Shown: in pieces, positions 39,182-46,720 of the stretch
How positions within the stretch are numbered: the stretch's first letter is position 1
How the letters are laid out: each line of letters opens with the position of its first letter
Origin: Lachnospiraceae bacterium
GTDB lineage: Bacteria; Bacillota; Clostridia; Lachnospirales; Lachnospiraceae
Direction of reading: 5' to 3'
Assembly: GCA_014799405.1 (NCBI GenBank)
Contig: JAAVIA010000038.1
Span: 54,733-103,081, forward strand
DNA: 48,349 nt
Position numbers and translations under genes: made by a program
The notes under the pieces: model-generated
What the model saw: the letters and a program-made list of their open reading frames with translations, nothing else
What the model was told of the DNA's origin: nothing
Databases searched by the model: none

Positions 39182-39736
39182 TTATCCTTCACGAAGTGCA
39201 TCATAAAAAGAATAATCAACCAAACCGCTCATTCTATCTAACGCTCCCTTTTCCAGTTCCTTAATCATCAGACAATCCGGATGTGGCAGCTTTATATTTG
39301 GTCCTGCTTCTATTCCAAATTTATAGCTTGATTGAAAGCCACGATTATTATAATTGCGTGGGTTGCCCTCAACAAGAATTGCTTTAAATCCCAATCTCCT
39401 GGCAGCGTCAAAGCCATATTCTAATATATCTTTTGAAATGTGCTGTCTTTGCAGTTCCGTTTTTACAGCAACAGGCGTCAGTATTAATAATTCGTTTTCA
39501 TACCTTCCCTCAATATGAAAACGAGAAAACATCGCATATCCAATAATCTCGTCTTTCTCATTTACCATAATAAATTCTAATTCAGGTATATAATATTTTT
39601 TTGCACGAATTTCTTCTACCAACTGTCGTACAACTTTTCCTTCTTCCGGACTATCATATTTTGTAAAAACACCTTCCACCAATTCAAGTGACGGAATAAG
39701 ATATTTATTTTCCATTGATTTTATAATACGTTCCAT
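39182..39736 (-). CDS. GNAT-family N-acetyltransferase
   Basis: The 184-residue protein has the GNAT core: beta strands with EFIMVNEKDEIIGYAMFSRF, the acetyl-CoA loop region LQRQHISKDILEYGFDAAR, and FKAILVEGNPRNYNNRGF, as in the YhbS-like subgroup. The usual Q/R-x-x-G-x-G/A loop appears altered (LQRQHIS), so CoA binding may differ. Substrate is unknown. It lies 137 bases downstream of the MutS2-like gene on the same strand and may be transcribed with it. Confidence 0.78.
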   Translation of the reverse strand: MERIIKSMENKYLIPSLELVEGVFTKYDSPEEGKVVRQLVEEIRAKKYYIPELEFIMVNEKDEIIGYAMFSRFHIEGRYENELLILTPVAVKTELQRQHISKDILEYGFDAARRLGFKAILVEGNPRNYNNRGFQSSYKFGIEAGPNIKLPHPDCLMIKELEKGALDRMSGLVDYSFYDALREG

Positions 39737-39873: not shown

Positions 39874-41775
39874 CTATGATTCTGACTCTATCACAGCATC
39901 CGTATATTTTCTTTGCATGTCATGCCTCTTTTTTCGATTTTCAACTGTTTCAAATACAATTGAAAAATCATAATCCTCTGGATAAAGCTCTGCTGCCGCC
40001 ACATGAAGTTTTACCCGTTTATGATTAATCCAGATTTTTTTATTTGGCAGTTGTACCCTCAACACACCTTTTTCGTTGATTGGAACACACACGATACCTA
40101 TCTTTTTCTCAGGGTAGACCATTACACTATCACCAATTTTATACTTGGTGCTAAGCTCCACATTATTCTTTCCCTTTTTAGCCTTGGAAATCTTATTGAT
40201 ATTTTTCTTAGTGATATTACTTTCAGGCTTTTGAAACTTATAAGACTCCACTGCATCTTTTCCATATGCAGCACAAATTGCCACCCGTAACATTTCATTT
40301 GGCATTCCCAGTCTGTCTGCAATATAAAATGCACAGCTTTCGCCTGCTTCTCCAATCACCATTTGATAAGTAGGACTTAATGTTTCCTTATCAAATGCCA
40401 TTCTTGCATTGACTATATCCGTTGCTTTCGCTGCATATTCTTTTACTTCCGGATAATGTGTTGTCACTAAGAAAATGGCACCACTTTTTCTAAGTTCTTC
40501 TAATATCGCAATTGCAATCCCCATGCCTTCTGTAGGATCTGTGCCGGAGCCTAATTCATCCATAATAACAAAGCTATCCTTATCCGCTTCGCTTAAAACT
40601 TCCAGCACGTTGGTTATGTGTGCAGAAAATGTAGACAGATTTTCGGACAGATTCTGACCATCACCAATATCACATAGATAAGAACCATTCATACAAATAT
40701 CTGCCTGTTTACATGTCACATGCAACCCACATTGTGCCATAATACAATTCAGCATAACCGTTTTAATTGCTACTGTTTTTCCACCCGTGTTTGGACCTGT
40801 TATAACAATACCACGTACATTTTCATCTATATCAAACTGTAATGGTACAGCAATCGTTTTATCCATCAACGGATGCCGTGCACTCGTTAGTTTAATTCTT
40901 CGTTCTGTATTTATCATCGGTTCTATTGCATCCATGTCAATGCTTAATTTTCCTTTAGAGAAAATAAAATCTAGTTTTTCAATCATTGCCAGATTTTCAT
41001 TCAACACAGGAGCTGATTCCAATACGATTGCTGACAAAGTATATAAAATGCGATACACTTCATTTTCTTCACCTATTTTTAGCAATTCCAATTCTTCATA
41101 ATATTTTGCAACACTTGTCGGTTCAATAAAAAGAGTGCTGCCTGTAGAAGACTTGTCAATGACGCTGCCGGATATCTTAAGTTTATATTCCTTTTTGACA
41201 GGAAGGCATATTCGTCCATTTCGAAACGTACAGTAGTTATCTGCCATACAATCCTTATGAGAACGCATGATTTGTTCTGCCTTTTGTTTCATCTGTTCTT
41301 CACATTTTATGATTTGATTTCGTATCTGTCCTAATTCTTTTGATGCGTAATCATCCACAATGCCATTCCTGATTTTGCTACATATTTCTTCCCGTAATTC
41401 CGAAATGGAATCCAGATTTTCATCATAATAAGCCAAGGAATTATTAAACTGTTTCCCTCTTGCCAAATAGTCCTTCAGCCGTTTTACCGCAACCAAAACT
41501 TTTTCTACCCGCTCTAACTGATACGGTGTTAAGCAATCTCCCTTTTCTGCAATCAATAGAATATCTTTTATTTCAGAGATATTTTGCAATGGCGGTGTTC
41601 CTAATTTTTCAATCAAGCTCCTGGCATCTGTTGTATCCCTTAACTGTTTTCTCAACTCATTTTCAGAAAAGTACAAGGAAACCTCTCTGATTTTTTCTTT
41701 TGCCCAGTCAGTAATGGCTAAATCAGCCCATATCTTTTTAACCTTATCAAATTCAATTTGTCTCTCAATATTCAT
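39874..41775 (-). CDS. MutS2-like ATPase lacking the Smr nuclease domain; candidate ribosome-rescue/resistance factor
   Basis: The 633-residue protein follows the MutS2 plan: a helical core/clamp (about 1-290), an ATPase with Walker A GPNTGGKT (327-334), signature SENLSTFSAHI (377-387) and Walker B VIMDELGSGTDP (403-414), and a KOW-like domain near 565-615 (KIGDSVMVYPEKKIGIVCVP). Full MutS2 is about 780 residues and ends in an Smr domain, which is absent. In Bacillus, MutS2 is known to bind collided ribosomes and split them. The gene sits behind a 340-base leader with promoter, leader peptide and terminator, like ribosome-targeted antibiotic-resistance genes. The start ATG at 41775 follows AAAGGATTAGAAAA. 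A function in antibiotic tolerance is inference; DNA repair or recombination is the alternative. Confidence 0.8.
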   Translation of the reverse strand: MNIERQIEFDKVKKIWADLAITDWAKEKIREVSLYFSENELRKQLRDTTDARSLIEKLGTPPLQNISEIKDILLIAEKGDCLTPYQLERVEKVLVAVKRLKDYLARGKQFNNSLAYYDENLDSISELREEICSKIRNGIVDDYASKELGQIRNQIIKCEEQMKQKAEQIMRSHKDCMADNYCTFRNGRICLPVKKEYKLKISGSVIDKSSTGSTLFIEPTSVAKYYEELELLKIGEENEVYRILYTLSAIVLESAPVLNENLAMIEKLDFIFSKGKLSIDMDAIEPMINTERRIKLTSARHPLMDKTIAVPLQFDIDENVRGIVITGPNTGGKTVAIKTVMLNCIMAQCGLHVTCKQADICMNGSYLCDIGDGQNLSENLSTFSAHITNVLEVLSEADKDSFVIMDELGSGTDPTEGMGIAIAILEELRKSGAIFLVTTHYPEVKEYAAKATDIVNARMAFDKETLSPTYQMVIGEAGESCAFYIADRLGMPNEMLRVAICAAYGKDAVESYKFQKPESNITKKNINKISKAKKGKNNVELSTKYKIGDSVMVYPEKKIGIVCVPINEKGVLRVQLPNKKIWINHKRVKLHVAAAELYPEDYDFSIVFETVENRKKRHDMQRKYTDAVIESES

Positions 41776-41816
41776 TTTTCTAATCCTTTCAATTTAAACT
41801 ATTGGTTCGCCTTAAA

Positions 41817-41865
41817 CGCAAAAAGACCATAGATACCCTAAGTGCATTAAGATACTATGGTCTTT
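41817..41865 (-). terminator. Intrinsic terminator in the mutS2-like leader (attenuator)
   Basis: AAAGACCATAG and CTATGGTCTTT form an 11-bp perfect stem around 22 bases, followed by TTTTT, only about 45 bases before the start codon. It lies inside the 5' leader, so the gene can be expressed only by readthrough. Confidence 0.85.
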
Positions 41866-41906
41866 CAATCTCTATATGATTATTCTATATATTTCAAAAT
41901 TAAAAT

Positions 41907-41928
41907 AGCATGACCATACAGCCATGCT
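41907..41928 (-). promoter_or_regulatory. Alternative hairpin carrying an antiterminator sequence
   Basis: AGCATG/CATGCT form a small stem. Overlapping it, TATGGTC (41912-41918) is complementary to GACCATA in the 5' arm of the terminator (41856-41862), so its pairing would prevent the terminator from forming. This is the typical switch of a ribosome-controlled attenuator. Confidence 0.65.
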
Positions 41929-42051
41929 AATATCATTTAGAAAATATATTTACCACAATATTAAGCAATTGTAAGGCGAAAACGCTGACAACACATGTTG
42001 CCAACAAATAGGTAGACTTCTAGCGTAAACTAAAAATCAACCTTGCAATAT

Positions 42052-42090
42052 TTATTTTGCAATTTTCTCCATTACAATAACACTTAACAT
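42052..42090 (-). CDS. 12-residue leader peptide MLSVIVMEKIAK
   Basis: A very short frame with a near-ideal ribosome binding site (AGGAGGATTTTGC before ATG at 42090), about 25 bases after the predicted transcription start. It ends in TAA about 190 bases before the terminator. Such peptides stall the ribosome in the presence of a drug and so control the downstream hairpins. The hydrophobic run LSVIV followed by charged residues is a plausible stalling segment, but stalling is inferred. Confidence 0.7.
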   Translation of the reverse strand: MLSVIVMEKIAK

Positions 42091-42117
42091 GCAAAATCCT
42101 CCTAAAACTTTTTGTTA

Positions 42118-42146
42118 ATTTTACATCATATCATATTGTTGGTCAA
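42118..42146 (-). promoter_or_regulatory. Promoter of the leader peptide/mutS2-like unit
   Basis: Minus strand TTGACC (42141-42146), exactly 17 bp, TAAAAT (42118-42123). The stretch 41776-42203 (428 bases) holds no large gene; it consists of this promoter, the leader peptide, hairpins and terminator. Confidence 0.85.
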
Positions 42147-42203
42147 GTATTAATTATAGTTTCAAATATTTCAAAACTCACTTACCATATAATGGCAAAA
42201 TCA

Positions 42204-42902
42204 TCAAACAATCTCATCCAAATTATATTCAAATACGAGTGGCTGGATTGTTTTTGTATAGGCGTTTTTTCTTGGTTTCACAGTCACTTTTTTGTTGCTT
42301 ACCTGAATATTACCTAAATAATTTAAATCCGGTGTTTCGGGCAAATCGGTCTCAAAGAGTATTTTATCTTCCATGTCCAATACTCTTAAAAGCGGCAGGT
42401 ATTGACACTTGTTAAGAAATCTTAAATATATAATGACTTTACGTTTTTCTGTTACTTTTTCTTTGAATTTCATCAGCATATTTTCGCCCTGTTCCAATGC
42501 TTGGGTAAAACATAAACAAATCTGTTTTTCGTCAAAGCTACCTGTGGCGAAATTTTGAATAAGCACCTTTCTTATCAGGTTTACAACTTCGTTTCTAAGC
42601 TCAGGATTTCCAAGCTCAGAAAACATATTATCACTTATATTTACATCATAATATCTGTACCATGAATAGTACCTATCTACACTTCTTTTGGACAATGCTA
42701 TTTCACCATTAACCGTACAAGTAGTAAAATTGATATACAAATGGTCAAATTCACCTAAAGAAAAATTATTTTCTCTAAGTTTCATCACAATTCTTCTTAT
42801 TATTGCAATAAGTTCTTTGTCTTCAAAACTTATTGGCAGAGAATTGCCGTCAATATTTTCAACATCACTTTTGTATATGCGAATATCCTTAATGACTTTC
42901 AA
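42204..42902 (-). CDS. Hypothetical protein, 232 aa, TTG start
   Basis: A soluble protein of no recognised family. It begins MKVIKDIRIYKSDVENIDGN, contains IVMKLRENNFSLGEFDHLYI and YYSWYRYYDVNISDN, and has a helical middle and a beta-rich C-terminus (PLLRVLDMEDKILFETDL). The start codon is TTG at 42902, with GAGGTGATAAT in front; no ATG fits as well. It lies between a GNAT gene (28 bases upstream) and the mutS2-like leader on the same strand, so it probably shares a transcript with the GNAT gene. Confidence 0.6.
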   Translation of the reverse strand: MKVIKDIRIYKSDVENIDGNSLPISFEDKELIAIIRRIVMKLRENNFSLGEFDHLYINFTTCTVNGEIALSKRSVDRYYSWYRYYDVNISDNMFSELGNPELRNEVVNLIRKVLIQNFATGSFDEKQICLCFTQALEQGENMLMKFKEKVTEKRKVIIYLRFLNKCQYLPLLRVLDMEDKILFETDLPETPDLNYLGNIQVSNKKVTVKPRKNAYTKTIQPLVFEYNLDEIV

Positions 42903-42930: not shown

Positions 42931-43704
42931 CTAATCCTTGCTCTTTATGATAGAACATTCGGATACTTTGATAAACCCTAGTTTTTCTGCGATTTTTTCA
43001 GACGCAACATTTTTATAATGACATGCCCACACAGGAGTTTTTGCTTGCTCCATGGTATATTGTATCATCTTATTTGCAACAATCATCCCGAATCCTTTCT
43101 GTTTATATTCAGGCTTCGTTTCTATTCCGATATCTATTTCTTTCGTACTTACTGCAGCAGAAAATGCCCATGAAGCAATATCATTATTACAAGTTATACA
43201 ATACCCTTTTCCTTTTACCAAAAAATCATTGACATCCTTCCAAAAAAGAGACGGTACAATTTTTCCTGAAAGTTGCTTTAATAACCGTTTATCTATTTCT
43301 TTCAGTTCATAGCCGTCAGGTAAAGAAGATTCAATATATCCTTTAGCTCCTGAATACTGAAACAAATATCTTTTTTCTTCAACAATATCATCTTTTGATT
43401 CAAAATATTTTTGTATATACCTATCTCTTGTCATTAAAAGAAATCGTTTTGTATTCGATTTATTTCTATCCAACATTAACTCATATATGTCTTCCAGAAA
43501 ATACTCATCGATATTTCCCGAACAATAAGCAAAACCACTATGTACCCAAAATAGAACTTTCTCACAGTCCTTCACTGAATTTGTGAAAATGTCCCCTTTT
43601 TGAATACCCTCAGCAACAGAAAGCGGATATACAGAACCACAATCATGAGTATTTGCAATATCAATTAAATTTGAATACTCCAGTGAATTAAGCTTATGCA
43701 ACAT
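42931..43704 (-). CDS. GNAT acetyltransferase of the ZmaR-like (GNAT_acetyltran) type
   Basis: The 257-residue protein has an N-terminal domain (about 1-120) and a C-terminal GNAT fold. Motifs are GIETKPEYKQKGFGMIVANK (acetyl-CoA pyrophosphate loop) and PVWACHYKNVASEKIAEKLG, characteristic of the family that includes zwittermicin A resistance protein ZmaR. Its substrate is unknown, but self-protection by acetylating an antimicrobial is a reasonable guess given the neighbours. The start ATG at 43704 follows AAAGGAAGCGTATAGA. Confidence 0.78.
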   Translation of the reverse strand: MLHKLNSLEYSNLIDIANTHDCGSVYPLSVAEGIQKGDIFTNSVKDCEKVLFWVHSGFAYCSGNIDEYFLEDIYELMLDRNKSNTKRFLLMTRDRYIQKYFESKDDIVEEKRYLFQYSGAKGYIESSLPDGYELKEIDKRLLKQLSGKIVPSLFWKDVNDFLVKGKGYCITCNNDIASWAFSAAVSTKEIDIGIETKPEYKQKGFGMIVANKMIQYTMEQAKTPVWACHYKNVASEKIAEKLGFIKVSECSIIKSKD

Positions 43705-45249: not shown

Positions 45250-45968
45250 TCAAATGCCCTCCTTATCTTTACAAACGATAACTGTGCTAAACAGAGAACC
45301 ACAAGCTCAGAGATTATGGCATAGATATAGTGCATTGCCTGTGTTACATCAGACCCCGCAAACACCTGAAAAGGCATTGCAAAGGGAAAGAGTGAAAGAA
45401 CAAAATCATTTGTCGGCAGCATAGTTGCAGTAAACATGCATACTACACCAATGCCAAGTGATATCCACATATTCTTACACGCCTCTGAAATAAGAAGTGA
45501 CAAAATAATGCAGGGTAACATCAACAAAAATGAATACCCAAAGTATTTGCACAGTTCACCCAAAAAACCATTTCCGATTTCAAACCAATGATAAGAGCAA
45601 AATGCGACTGCTCCCGCTTCTATTACAAGCACGAAAAGGCTCATAAAAATTGTTAAAACCGTTTTCCCCAAGAAAATAGAGCTTTCCCGAATGGGTAAAG
45701 CTTTCATTTTCTGCATAGCATTGTCTGCATATTCGGTATGATATAAAAGGCAGGTTCCGGCTACAACAAGCAGCACATTCAGCATTGCCATTATCTGCCA
45801 ATTTGCACCAAACAGAATTTGTATTGGAGTATCCGGCAGATTAAGATACTGTTCCGAACGGACAACCATATTGACAACAGGAAAAGCCGCCGCCAAAATA
45901 CCGCCACCTAAAAATGCCGGTAAAAACCCAGTCCGTTTTACCTTCTTACATTCCAAAGAAACGCTCAT
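45246..45968 (-). CDS. Lantibiotic-immunity ABC transporter permease, MutE/EpiE-like
   Basis: The 240-residue protein has six membrane segments and the LanE-type signature YHTEYADNAMQKMKALPIRE in the first cytoplasmic loop. It shares organisation with the adjacent MutG-like permease and would form a heterodimeric channel. The start overlaps the ATPase stop by 4 bases and its own stop overlaps the next start by 4 bases. Confidence 0.87.
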   Translation of the reverse strand: MSVSLECKKVKRTGFLPAFLGGGILAAAFPVVNMVVRSEQYLNLPDTPIQILFGANWQIMAMLNVLLVVAGTCLLYHTEYADNAMQKMKALPIRESSIFLGKTVLTIFMSLFVLVIEAGAVAFCSYHWFEIGNGFLGELCKYFGYSFLLMLPCIILSLLISEACKNMWISLGIGVVCMFTATMLPTNDFVLSLFPFAMPFQVFAGSDVTQAMHYIYAIISELVVLCLAQLSFVKIRRAFE

Positions 45969-46720
45969 AACACTGCACCTCCTTGTCTGTTGTCAGCGTC
46001 AATCAAGGCAAGAAATGTATCTTCCAGATTATCCGTAGGATAGCCCTGTGAAATTGCACTAGCTTTAAGCTGGTCCAGTGTTCCCTCAAACAGCAAATGA
46101 CCGTGATTCAGGATATCGATGGTATCGGCCATTAGCTCTATTTCGGACAGCAAATGCGACGATACCAAAACAGTACAATTAAACTTCTCCGGTAAAGAAC
46201 GGATCAGTGTTCTGATTTCGTGGATACCGACAGGATCAAGTCCATTTGTCGGCTCGTCTAAAATCAAGATTGGCGGCTTTCCAATTAAAGCACTTGCAAG
46301 ACCTAACCTTTGCTTCATTCCAAGAGAATATTTCTTGGCAAGCCGTTTCTTAAACTGCGTCAGCCCCACGATTTCAAGAGCTTCCGCTACGGAGGATTTA
46401 GGAAGTCCCAATATTTTACGTATAATTTCGAGATTTTCTTCTCCACTCAAATTCCCATAAAAAGCGGGTGCTTCAATAAAGGAGCCAATTTCTTTTAATA
46501 TTTGCACTCTGTTTTCGGGGTACATCTTCCCATCAATCGTAAATGAGCCGGCAGTGGGCTTGGTAAGCCCCAAAAACATTTTCATTGTAGTGGATTTCCC
46601 AGCGCCATTCGGACCAAGAAAGCCATAAACAGTTCCTTTCGGGATATGCAGATTGATATCCGAAACCGCTGTAAAATCAGCATATGATTTTGTTAAATTT
46701 TTTGTTTCAATGATATTCAT
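45965..46720 (-). CDS. Lantibiotic-protection ABC transporter ATP-binding protein (MutF/LanF-like)
   Basis: The 251-residue ATPase has Walker A GPNGAGKST (36-44), a Q-loop region near EIGSFIEAPAFYGNL, ABC signature YSLGMKQRL (131-139), Walker B ILILDEP (151-157) and the switch His in VLVSSHLLSE. The E-loop variant of the Q-loop (IEAP) is characteristic of LanF proteins and is visible here (SFIEAPAF). It is the first gene of the exporter operon, divergent from the two-component genes. The start ATG at 46720 is preceded by AGAGGGTAAAATACA. Confidence 0.92.
   Translation of the reverse strand: MNIIETKNLTKSYADFTAVSDINLHIPKGTVYGFLGPNGAGKSTTMKMFLGLTKPTAGSFTIDGKMYPENRVQILKEIGSFIEAPAFYGNLSGEENLEIIRKILGLPKSSVAEALEIVGLTQFKKRLAKKYSLGMKQRLGLASALIGKPPILILDEPTNGLDPVGIHEIRTLIRSLPEKFNCTVLVSSHLLSEIELMADTIDILNHGHLLFEGTLDQLKASAISQGYPTDNLEDTFLALIDADNRQGGAVL

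Follow-up and report, generated by a model that had tools for sequence, protein, structure and literature searches.

A Smr-less MutS2 paralog behind an upstream-reading-frame attenuator: a candidate stall-inducible ribosome-rescue or resistance ATPase of Lachnospiraceae and other Bacillota

According to PMC10897456, MutS2 of Bacillus subtilis binds collided ribosomes via its KOW and Smr domains and splits them by means of its ATPase, and cells that have lost it become sensitive to chloramphenicol, tetracycline and erythromycin. Erythromycin sensitivity equals that of the deletion in a Walker B mutant but is only modest in mutants of Smr and KOW. Here, a MutS2 relative without Smr was analyzed together with the RNA leader in front of its gene. 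It is encoded in a stretch of 48,349 nucleotides (nt) from a Lachnospiraceae bacterium (GenBank assembly GCA_014799405.1, contig JAAVIA010000038.1, positions 54,733 to 103,081), which as a whole is called the window in the following. The gene (39874–41775, minus strand, 633 codons), referred to as short mutS2, is preceded by an upstream open reading frame (uORF) and two intrinsic terminators, and the computational evidence indicates that the locus probably encodes a MutS2 paralog inducible by ribosome stalling, which would serve as a rescue or resistance ATPase. A first-pass annotation of the window had already proposed a drug-inducible factor of this kind, an interpretation that was partly supported by the present analysis.

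All elements of the leader lie on the minus strand. The promoter, composed of a −35 box TTGACC (42141–42146) and a −10 box TAAAAT (42118–42123) at a spacing of 17, matches 10 of 12 consensus bases and is therefore not perfect, as the first-pass annotation had called it. Downstream follow the ribosome binding site AGGAGG (42098–42103) and the 12-codon uORF (42052–42090; ATG MLSVIVMEKIAK stop), which that annotation had recognised correctly and whose peptide and codons are conserved. The uORF is predicted to double as the 5′ strand of an anti-antiterminator helix by pairing with a segment termed anti-uORF (41952–41982, ends approximate), which alternatively pairs, as antiterminator, with the 5′ arms of the terminators; between uORF and anti-uORF an apical hairpin (41984–42005, ends approximate) constitutes the third covarying helix. 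An intrinsic terminator had been expected in the leader and is indeed present, yet there are two of them instead of one, T1 (41906–41929, −12.4 kcal/mol) and T2 (41825–41862, −16.6 kcal/mol), both of which are hairpins with T-runs; a simpler terminator scan lists T1 only. The 335 nt 5′ of the gene fold with a z of −6.7 relative to shuffled sequences. A search of the surroundings (41700–42200) against Rfam returned only matches far under the gathering scores, and in eight loci with relatives of the gene nothing but a purine riboswitch, unrelated to the leader, reached its gathering score; consequently, the leader is not a listed RNA family. Promoter, translatable uORF with ribosome binding site and intrinsic terminator in front of the gene, which characterise attenuators of the vmlR/hflXr type, are all found here as sequence features.

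With respect to the protein, the MutS2 model TIGR01069 matched with 533.6 bits (cut-off 400), the match being confined to residues 2–499. The MutS_V ATPase domain (40279–40809, minus strand, residues 323–499) keeps the Walker A (GPNTGGKT) and Walker B (DE) motifs. Among the Pfam and NCBIfam models no Smr match was obtained in the 633 amino acids (aa), and Pfam calls no KOW domain either. When profiles of the parts following the ATPase were compared (44 short versus 24 long sequences), that of the short form aligned to the stretch of full-length MutS2 which holds KOW (hhalign 98.1%, E 1e-13), and about 87 coiled-coil positions were skipped, so that the coiled coil between ATPase and KOW, a canonical feature of MutS2, is missing from the short form. 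Profile alignment and model place the KOW-like barrel at residues about 547–592 (40000–40137, minus strand). The predicted structure, with a mean predicted local distance difference test score of 86.3, consists of the core, the ATPase, a loose linker (low confidence at about residues 511–540), a five-strand barrel at 550–592 and a short helical tail. MutS2 chains account for all 13 of its best matches in the PDB, and the model fits B. subtilis MutS2 on collided ribosomes (7qv3) with a template modelling (TM) score of 0.71. The place of Smr is taken by a family-specific C-terminal tail (39877–39999, minus strand; LYPEDYDFSIVFETVENRKKRHDMQRK...), conserved in 42 members, with Y598, P599, Y602, D603 and R614 invariant across the 42 short-form sequences, as are the nucleotide-binding residues. 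These comparisons confirm, at the level of sequence and predicted fold, that the protein is related to MutS2, possesses its core, ATPase and KOW and lacks coiled coil and Smr, just as the first-pass annotation had described it with regard to ATPase, KOW and Smr.

Given the MutS fold and an older literature that links MutS2 to suppression of recombination (PMC3200294), the protein might instead be a MutS paralog of recombination or repair, whose leader merely couples the gene to the state of translation. The model of MutS was matched over positions 509–777 of 840 only, i.e. the N-terminal mismatch and connector domains of MutS1 were not found in the short form. Together with the retained KOW and with a stalled-ribosome leader, which makes little sense for a repair gene, this renders a function on the DNA side improbable.

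The leader was then followed through the relatives of the gene by a strict rule, i.e. a uORF of 6–15 codons with a Shine–Dalgarno word of at least 5 and, behind it, a terminator hairpin no more than 450 nt away from the gene. In Lachnospiraceae 47 of 93 short-form upstream regions obeyed this rule versus 0 of 40 regular mutS2 upstream regions and 0–1 of 93 in each of three shuffled sets, counts which, like those that follow, are only descriptive because the rows are related and thus non-independent, the rule was written after the first leaders had been viewed and the regular mutS2 genes may reside within operons. For a second set from named contigs the numbers were 25 of 48 versus 0 of 26 controls, one of which (L242) is a 404-aa fragment. 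Taken alone, a terminator was found in 68/93 short-form versus 6/40 regular mutS2 upstream regions (shuffles 8–12/93) and a uORF in 64/93 versus 4/40 (shuffles 27–31/93). A strict peptide pattern, likewise picked after inspection of the leaders, occurred in 45/93 and 14/48 short-form regions and in none of the 66 controls, and 75 of 109 leaders had a promoter-like site (at least 10 of 12) 5′ of the uORF, compared to 3 of 109 after shuffling. The comparative evidence for the attenuation layout claimed in the first-pass annotation is therefore strong, and about half of the homologs keep the leader by the strict rule, so that the absence of the leader from homologs, which that annotation had named as a refutation, is not what was observed.

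Outside Lachnospiraceae the uORFs mostly comprise seven codons (MLGVVLN, MSVSVLN, MKVVVLN, MLSVVLN), and their end GTTCTTAACTA frequently recurs downstream as its complement. A search with an RNA-only pattern in 299 genomes of another order (presumably Bacillales) matched 46 genomes, the reversed pattern giving none among the matches listed, and at 30 of 30 loci examined the next gene was short mutS2. As the pattern had been derived from short-mutS2 leaders, recovery of such genes was expected; the absence of other genes behind the matches is the strong part of this RNA-side search. It is thus strongly supported by the comparison of genomes that a putative uORF attenuator accompanies the short MutS2 gene from Lachnospiraceae to Bacillus and Paenibacillus. 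A single AT-rich locus could mislead by itself, and the arrangement could then be a chance leader in front of a misread, truncated mutS2. With 0 of 66 control upstream regions obeying the strict rule, 30 of 30 RNA-first loci on short mutS2, a conserved tail of its own and an origin by one change on the tree (see below), the probability of this explanation is practically negligible. As a separate observation, a small palindromic insert, AGGAAATTCCTCTGAATTTCCT, is located between both terminators of L031 (G035), and a similar palindrome lies 5′ of the mutS2-linked GNAT gene in L172.

Comparative folding of 16 leaders by RNAalifold paired the uORF to a segment about 90 nt downstream. Pairing was possible in 91.4% of 455 alignment cells versus 37–56% with the partner slid by 1–3 columns, a difference favoured by the fact that the consensus structure was derived from the same 16-leader alignment. 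Changes on both sides were observed in 11 of 29 structure pairs, and the covariation score amounted to 0.274 versus 0.167 for shuffled alignments, none of 500 shuffles being as high. Examples from more distant leaders are GTTCTGAACTA with TAGTTCAGAAC in L113 and GGTTCTTTAA facing TAAAGAACC in L127. For the prediction of the switch the RNA was taken as transcribed up to the terminator loop. Upon occupancy of the uORF the mean probability of the intervening segment holding a terminator 5′ arm increased from 0.30 to 0.57 (119 terminators; 73 up by at least 0.2, 4 down), and the antiterminator pairing rose by at least 0.2 for 56 of 88 first terminators. In the window the predicted values change from 0.01 to 0.73 for T1 and from 0.44 to 0.72 for T2. 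A ribosome on the uORF thus frees the anti-uORF and blocks termination in the folding prediction, so that the mutually exclusive anti-antiterminator and antiterminator of known attenuators are present here as predicted structures. The anatomy of the leader, its conservation, its covariation and its link with the gene were all demonstrated by computation.

Regarding the uORF itself, the third codon position is the most variable one in the 32 twelve-codon uORFs (1.14 versus 0.67 and 0.79 bits), a variability that is also constrained by the RNA pairing of the same bases, and deletions of exactly one codon were found in L045, L054 and L060. Judged from this codon pattern, the uORF is likely translated in cells. 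Arg is never the commonest residue at any position of the 32 twelve-codon and 44 seven-codon uORFs. The last sense codon (42055–42057 in the window) encodes Asn or Lys in 93 of 114 chosen uORFs versus 8% of 180 shuffle uORFs, the former number being somewhat inflated since the choice among competing uORFs favoured Asn/Lys ends; Asn or Lys before the stop may hint at stalling at termination. One to three Val residues are present in 107 of the 114 uORFs, and such a Val/Ile/Leu-rich peptide could in principle sense a shortage of branched-chain amino acids, as in amino-acid attenuation. Yet some positions have Ser, Asn, Thr, Glu or Gly instead of Val, peptides such as MSARSSK, MSESVTN and MSAVGTK carry one Val or none, and no amino-acid-like gene is found among those directly behind the leaders examined, which leaves this explanation very improbable.

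The source genome (2.8 megabases (Mb), 61 contigs) contains four MutS-type ATPase genes, among them one full-length MutS2 (model positions 1–790) bearing the only Smr match of the genome (C37). The short form occurs in 5 of 37 genomes of the genus at 65–100% identity, each of which also has a regular MutS2 match; the coexistence with full-length mutS2 about which the first-pass annotation had asked is hence observed in the source genome. By reading of the profile-match table, 62 of 299 genomes of the family, which was assigned to Lachnospiraceae from its named relatives, carry it, with 615–1105 bits and nearly all matches spanning the whole profile besides a few fragments, compared to at most 592 bits for regular MutS2 among the matches listed, which mostly end near profile position 551. 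A further match at threshold was found in 60 of these 62 genomes, not all of these partners being visible as full-length among the matches listed, and the two genomes without a second match are incomplete (85% and 69%). Phylum-wide, 33 of 398 genomes passed, the source genome included; 31 of the matches look short and two full-length. On a tree built by a quick method from the first 560 residues (core and ATPase), short and long forms (57 chosen short, 25 long) are split by a single change with a Shimodaira–Hasegawa-like approximate likelihood ratio test (SH-aLRT) value of 100, i.e. the short form has a single origin in this tree. Named carriers comprise Lachnospiraceae, Lacrimispora, Neglectibacter, Fusibacter, Natronincola, Bacillus marasmi, Rossellomorea, Fictibacillus, Mesobacillus, Halobacillus, Peribacillus, Psychrobacillus and Paenibacillus. 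The current annotation of the enzyme reads 'endonuclease MutS2' or 'DNA mismatch repair protein MutS'. In a plasmid collection 70 records matched, in 7 of which a single place spanned 80% or more of the query, and the four records used are short forms on replicons of 0.1–2.7 Mb; in a single scan for close relatives, seven viral stretches matched the peptide pattern and none of them encodes a relative.

Several further observations were made on this family. The short mutS2 copies of G039 (L049) and G290 (L054) have one in-frame stop each (TGA and TAA, respectively) with the uORF leader present, and genome G073 possesses two short mutS2 genes (L090, L097), each with a uORF leader. The source genome additionally encodes a MutS-ATPase protein of about 605 aa (L004, G000:C41:22703-23218), to which weak matches exist in frames of similar length in many genomes of the genus.

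Similar leaders were also encountered in front of other genes. A covariance model of the leader (R1) matched 34 of the 299 Lachnospiraceae genomes, 13 of which had supplied sequences to the model; in the source genome it gave one real match and one at chance level. Short mutS2 follows directly, with no gene recognised between, at 26 matches, and for one match (G217) the contig breaks off. A further three stand at the start of operons whose last gene is short mutS2 and which include an ABC exporter (G215), a methyltransferase (G329) or a GNAT acetyltransferase (G100), and four head other genes, namely ABC exporters (G172, where the contig stops after the exporter permease, and G199) and GNATs (G167, G202), with the uORFs MLIVSVMTMNN, MLIVSVMTKDN, MLSIVRMENTTN and MLTVIVIEQSAIA. 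ABC exporter operons and GNAT genes stand behind the leaders L313, L314, L315 and L316. No mutS2 was found on the stretches fetched for these, that of L313 stopping at the contig end, and G199 shows no short mutS2 in the family-wide profile matches. Additional leader-headed operons contain an ABC exporter (L062, L067, L170), a methyltransferase (L174, L175, L182, L187) or a GNAT (L172). The exporter ATPase is nearest to DrrA, its 194.8 bits lying under the family cut-off of 312.45. That exporters, acetyltransferases and methyltransferases stand under similar leaders supports a regulatory reading of the element, beyond what the first-pass annotation had to rely on.

In the window, a GNAT acetyltransferase gene (39182–39736, minus strand) begins 137 nt downstream of short mutS2 with no terminator-like site between and is a probable operon partner. 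Seven other loci have a relative of it next to short mutS2 (97%–26% identity, three of them distant), a similar GNAT in L316 bears such a leader by itself, and the GNAT of G167 closely resembles that of the window by eye. On the other side, two genes had been regarded as resistance-flavoured neighbours in the first-pass annotation, a second GNAT (42931–43704, PF12746 match) and an exporter (45965–46720; galliderm_ABC 255.5 bits, under the cut-off of 309.75). Both are real genes and neither is conserved beside short mutS2: within four genes on each side of 146 loci one weak relative of the GNAT and only general ABC similarity for the exporter were found, and they were rejected as supporting neighbours. 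The 232-aa protein directly upstream of the leader (42204–42902) had no Pfam or NCBIfam match at an E value of 0.001.

A mechanism which would account for these data proceeds as follows. In the absence of stress a ribosome would quickly translate the uORF and depart, the emptied uORF would pair with the anti-uORF, the terminators would form and transcription would end before the gene. If a drug or another block held the ribosome on the uORF, the anti-uORF would be freed and could pair with the terminator 5′ arms, and short mutS2 would be transcribed. The product would be a MutS2-type ATPase that binds ribosomes via KOW and uses ATP to split or clear stalled ones; it would operate without Smr and coiled coil, the parts by which MutS2 reads collisions, and with the tail in place of Smr. 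Since motor and KOW are kept, Smr is gone and the protein would be made only under stalling, an emergency factor for rescue or resistance is the best reading of it, and by analogy with MutS2 and HflXr it may split or protect ribosomes upon drug exposure. On uORFs of such small length a ribosome would mask a large share of the pairing partner wherever it stops; this and the lack of an RLR motif point to drugs that stop initiation or early elongation, i.e. lincosamides, pleuromutilins and streptogramin A, as the likeliest inducers.

Several observations weigh against this interpretation. The RLR or RYR arrest motif of macrolide-type leaders is absent from the window uORF, and the KOW loop for uS10 binding (Q668xxILK) is only partly retained, with Q kept and KKI replacing ILK. 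As reported in PMC10897456, deletion of Smr strongly lowers ribosome binding of B. subtilis MutS2, so that a Smr-less form might fail on collided ribosomes. The strict rule misses 46/93 and 23/48 short-form upstream regions, and some family members have no leader of their own, several of which lie inside leader-headed operons while others are unexplained. A relaxed uORF test is passed by 75/93 and 30/48 short-form regions, yet it is unspecific (19–24/93 shuffles, 5/26 and 2/40 controls). In 115 leaders the plain duplex test was weak (median z −1.26, p of at most 5/100 in 46/115), and a control with a shuffled middle switched by at least 0.2 in 47 of 176 cases, indicating some apparent switching. 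Finally, the four R1 matches on genes other than mutS2 are weak (E 2.5e-5 to 0.0096) and were accepted because their uORFs and layout agree by reading.

The induction could also be less specific. The leader might sense any stalled ribosome, be it by starvation, mRNA damage or cold, and the protein might boost ordinary quality control under general translation stress. As described for toiL (PMC12121999), stalling at any point of one uORF can signal several classes of drugs, B. subtilis MutS2 acts in general rescue (PMC10897456), and no drug-specific motif was recognised in the uORF. The patchy spread of the gene (5/37 in the genus, 62/299 in Lachnospiraceae) fits a resistance gene more than a housekeeping one, and exporter and acetyltransferase genes stand under similar leaders; this general role is accordingly considered rather unlikely. 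For the emergency rescue or resistance factor a more specific version can be formulated, for which we regard the chances as even: short MutS2 would be a third kind of inducible ATPase/GTPase defending ribosomes, besides ABC-F and HflXr, that clears drug-stalled ribosomes without collisions, and the leader would be the portable module of a small regulon (short MutS2, GNAT acetyltransferase, DrrA-like exporter, methyltransferase) directed against a natural ribosome inhibitor of gut and soil.

The individual parts are known in kind. Within the titles and abstract starts among the matches listed (subscription papers and preprints were outside the scope), no short MutS2, MutS2 leader or drug induction of MutS2 was found, and, within the reach of these searches, it is new for an attenuator to be combined with a short MutS2 paralog; a class 'MutS3' of older MutS surveys may include the short form, and no paper was found to confirm this. 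The combination suggests a hitherto undescribed inducible defence against ribosome-targeting antibiotics. If true, a protein annotated as MutS2 or MutS would be an unrecognised drug-inducible ribosome-rescue or resistance factor of Lachnospiraceae, Bacilli and other Bacillota. The principle known from HflXr, in which the relative of a ribosome splitter has come under drug control, would extend to a second family, and further genes of the regulon could be sought by means of the leader. It would also raise the question of what MutS2 does without its collision-reading Smr domain.

Compared to the closest known systems, the short form resembles MutS2 (B. subtilis MutS2/MutSB, TIGR01069) in core/clamp, ATPase, KOW and fold, and it differs by the missing Smr and coiled coil, its own tail, the attenuator leader, its separate side of the tree and its occurrence beside full-length MutS2. 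HflXr, a GTPase of a family other than MutS2, coexists with the housekeeping HflX in a similar manner. In HflXr of Listeria (lmo0762), too, a transcription attenuator with a uORF precedes the gene for a relative of a factor that splits ribosomes (PMC6310831); its 14-aa uORF contains RLR, in contrast to the window uORF. According to PMC8632094, the uORFC-6-1 motif 5′ of hflX is also a predicted uORF-dependent RNA element before a rescue factor, but its gene is hflX and its peptide has RLR; the term 'mutS' occurs 0 times in the main text of that source. A leader with the same layout is that of vmlR, the ABCF gene of B. subtilis, in which the uORF lies inside the anti-antiterminator and is followed by antiterminator and terminator, and whose uORF variants MIN, MDN, MDK and MRK end in Asn or Lys (PMC9226507). 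With its 3-codon uORF and its ABCF gene the vmlR leader differs from that of short mutS2, and the likeness described here is one of layout.

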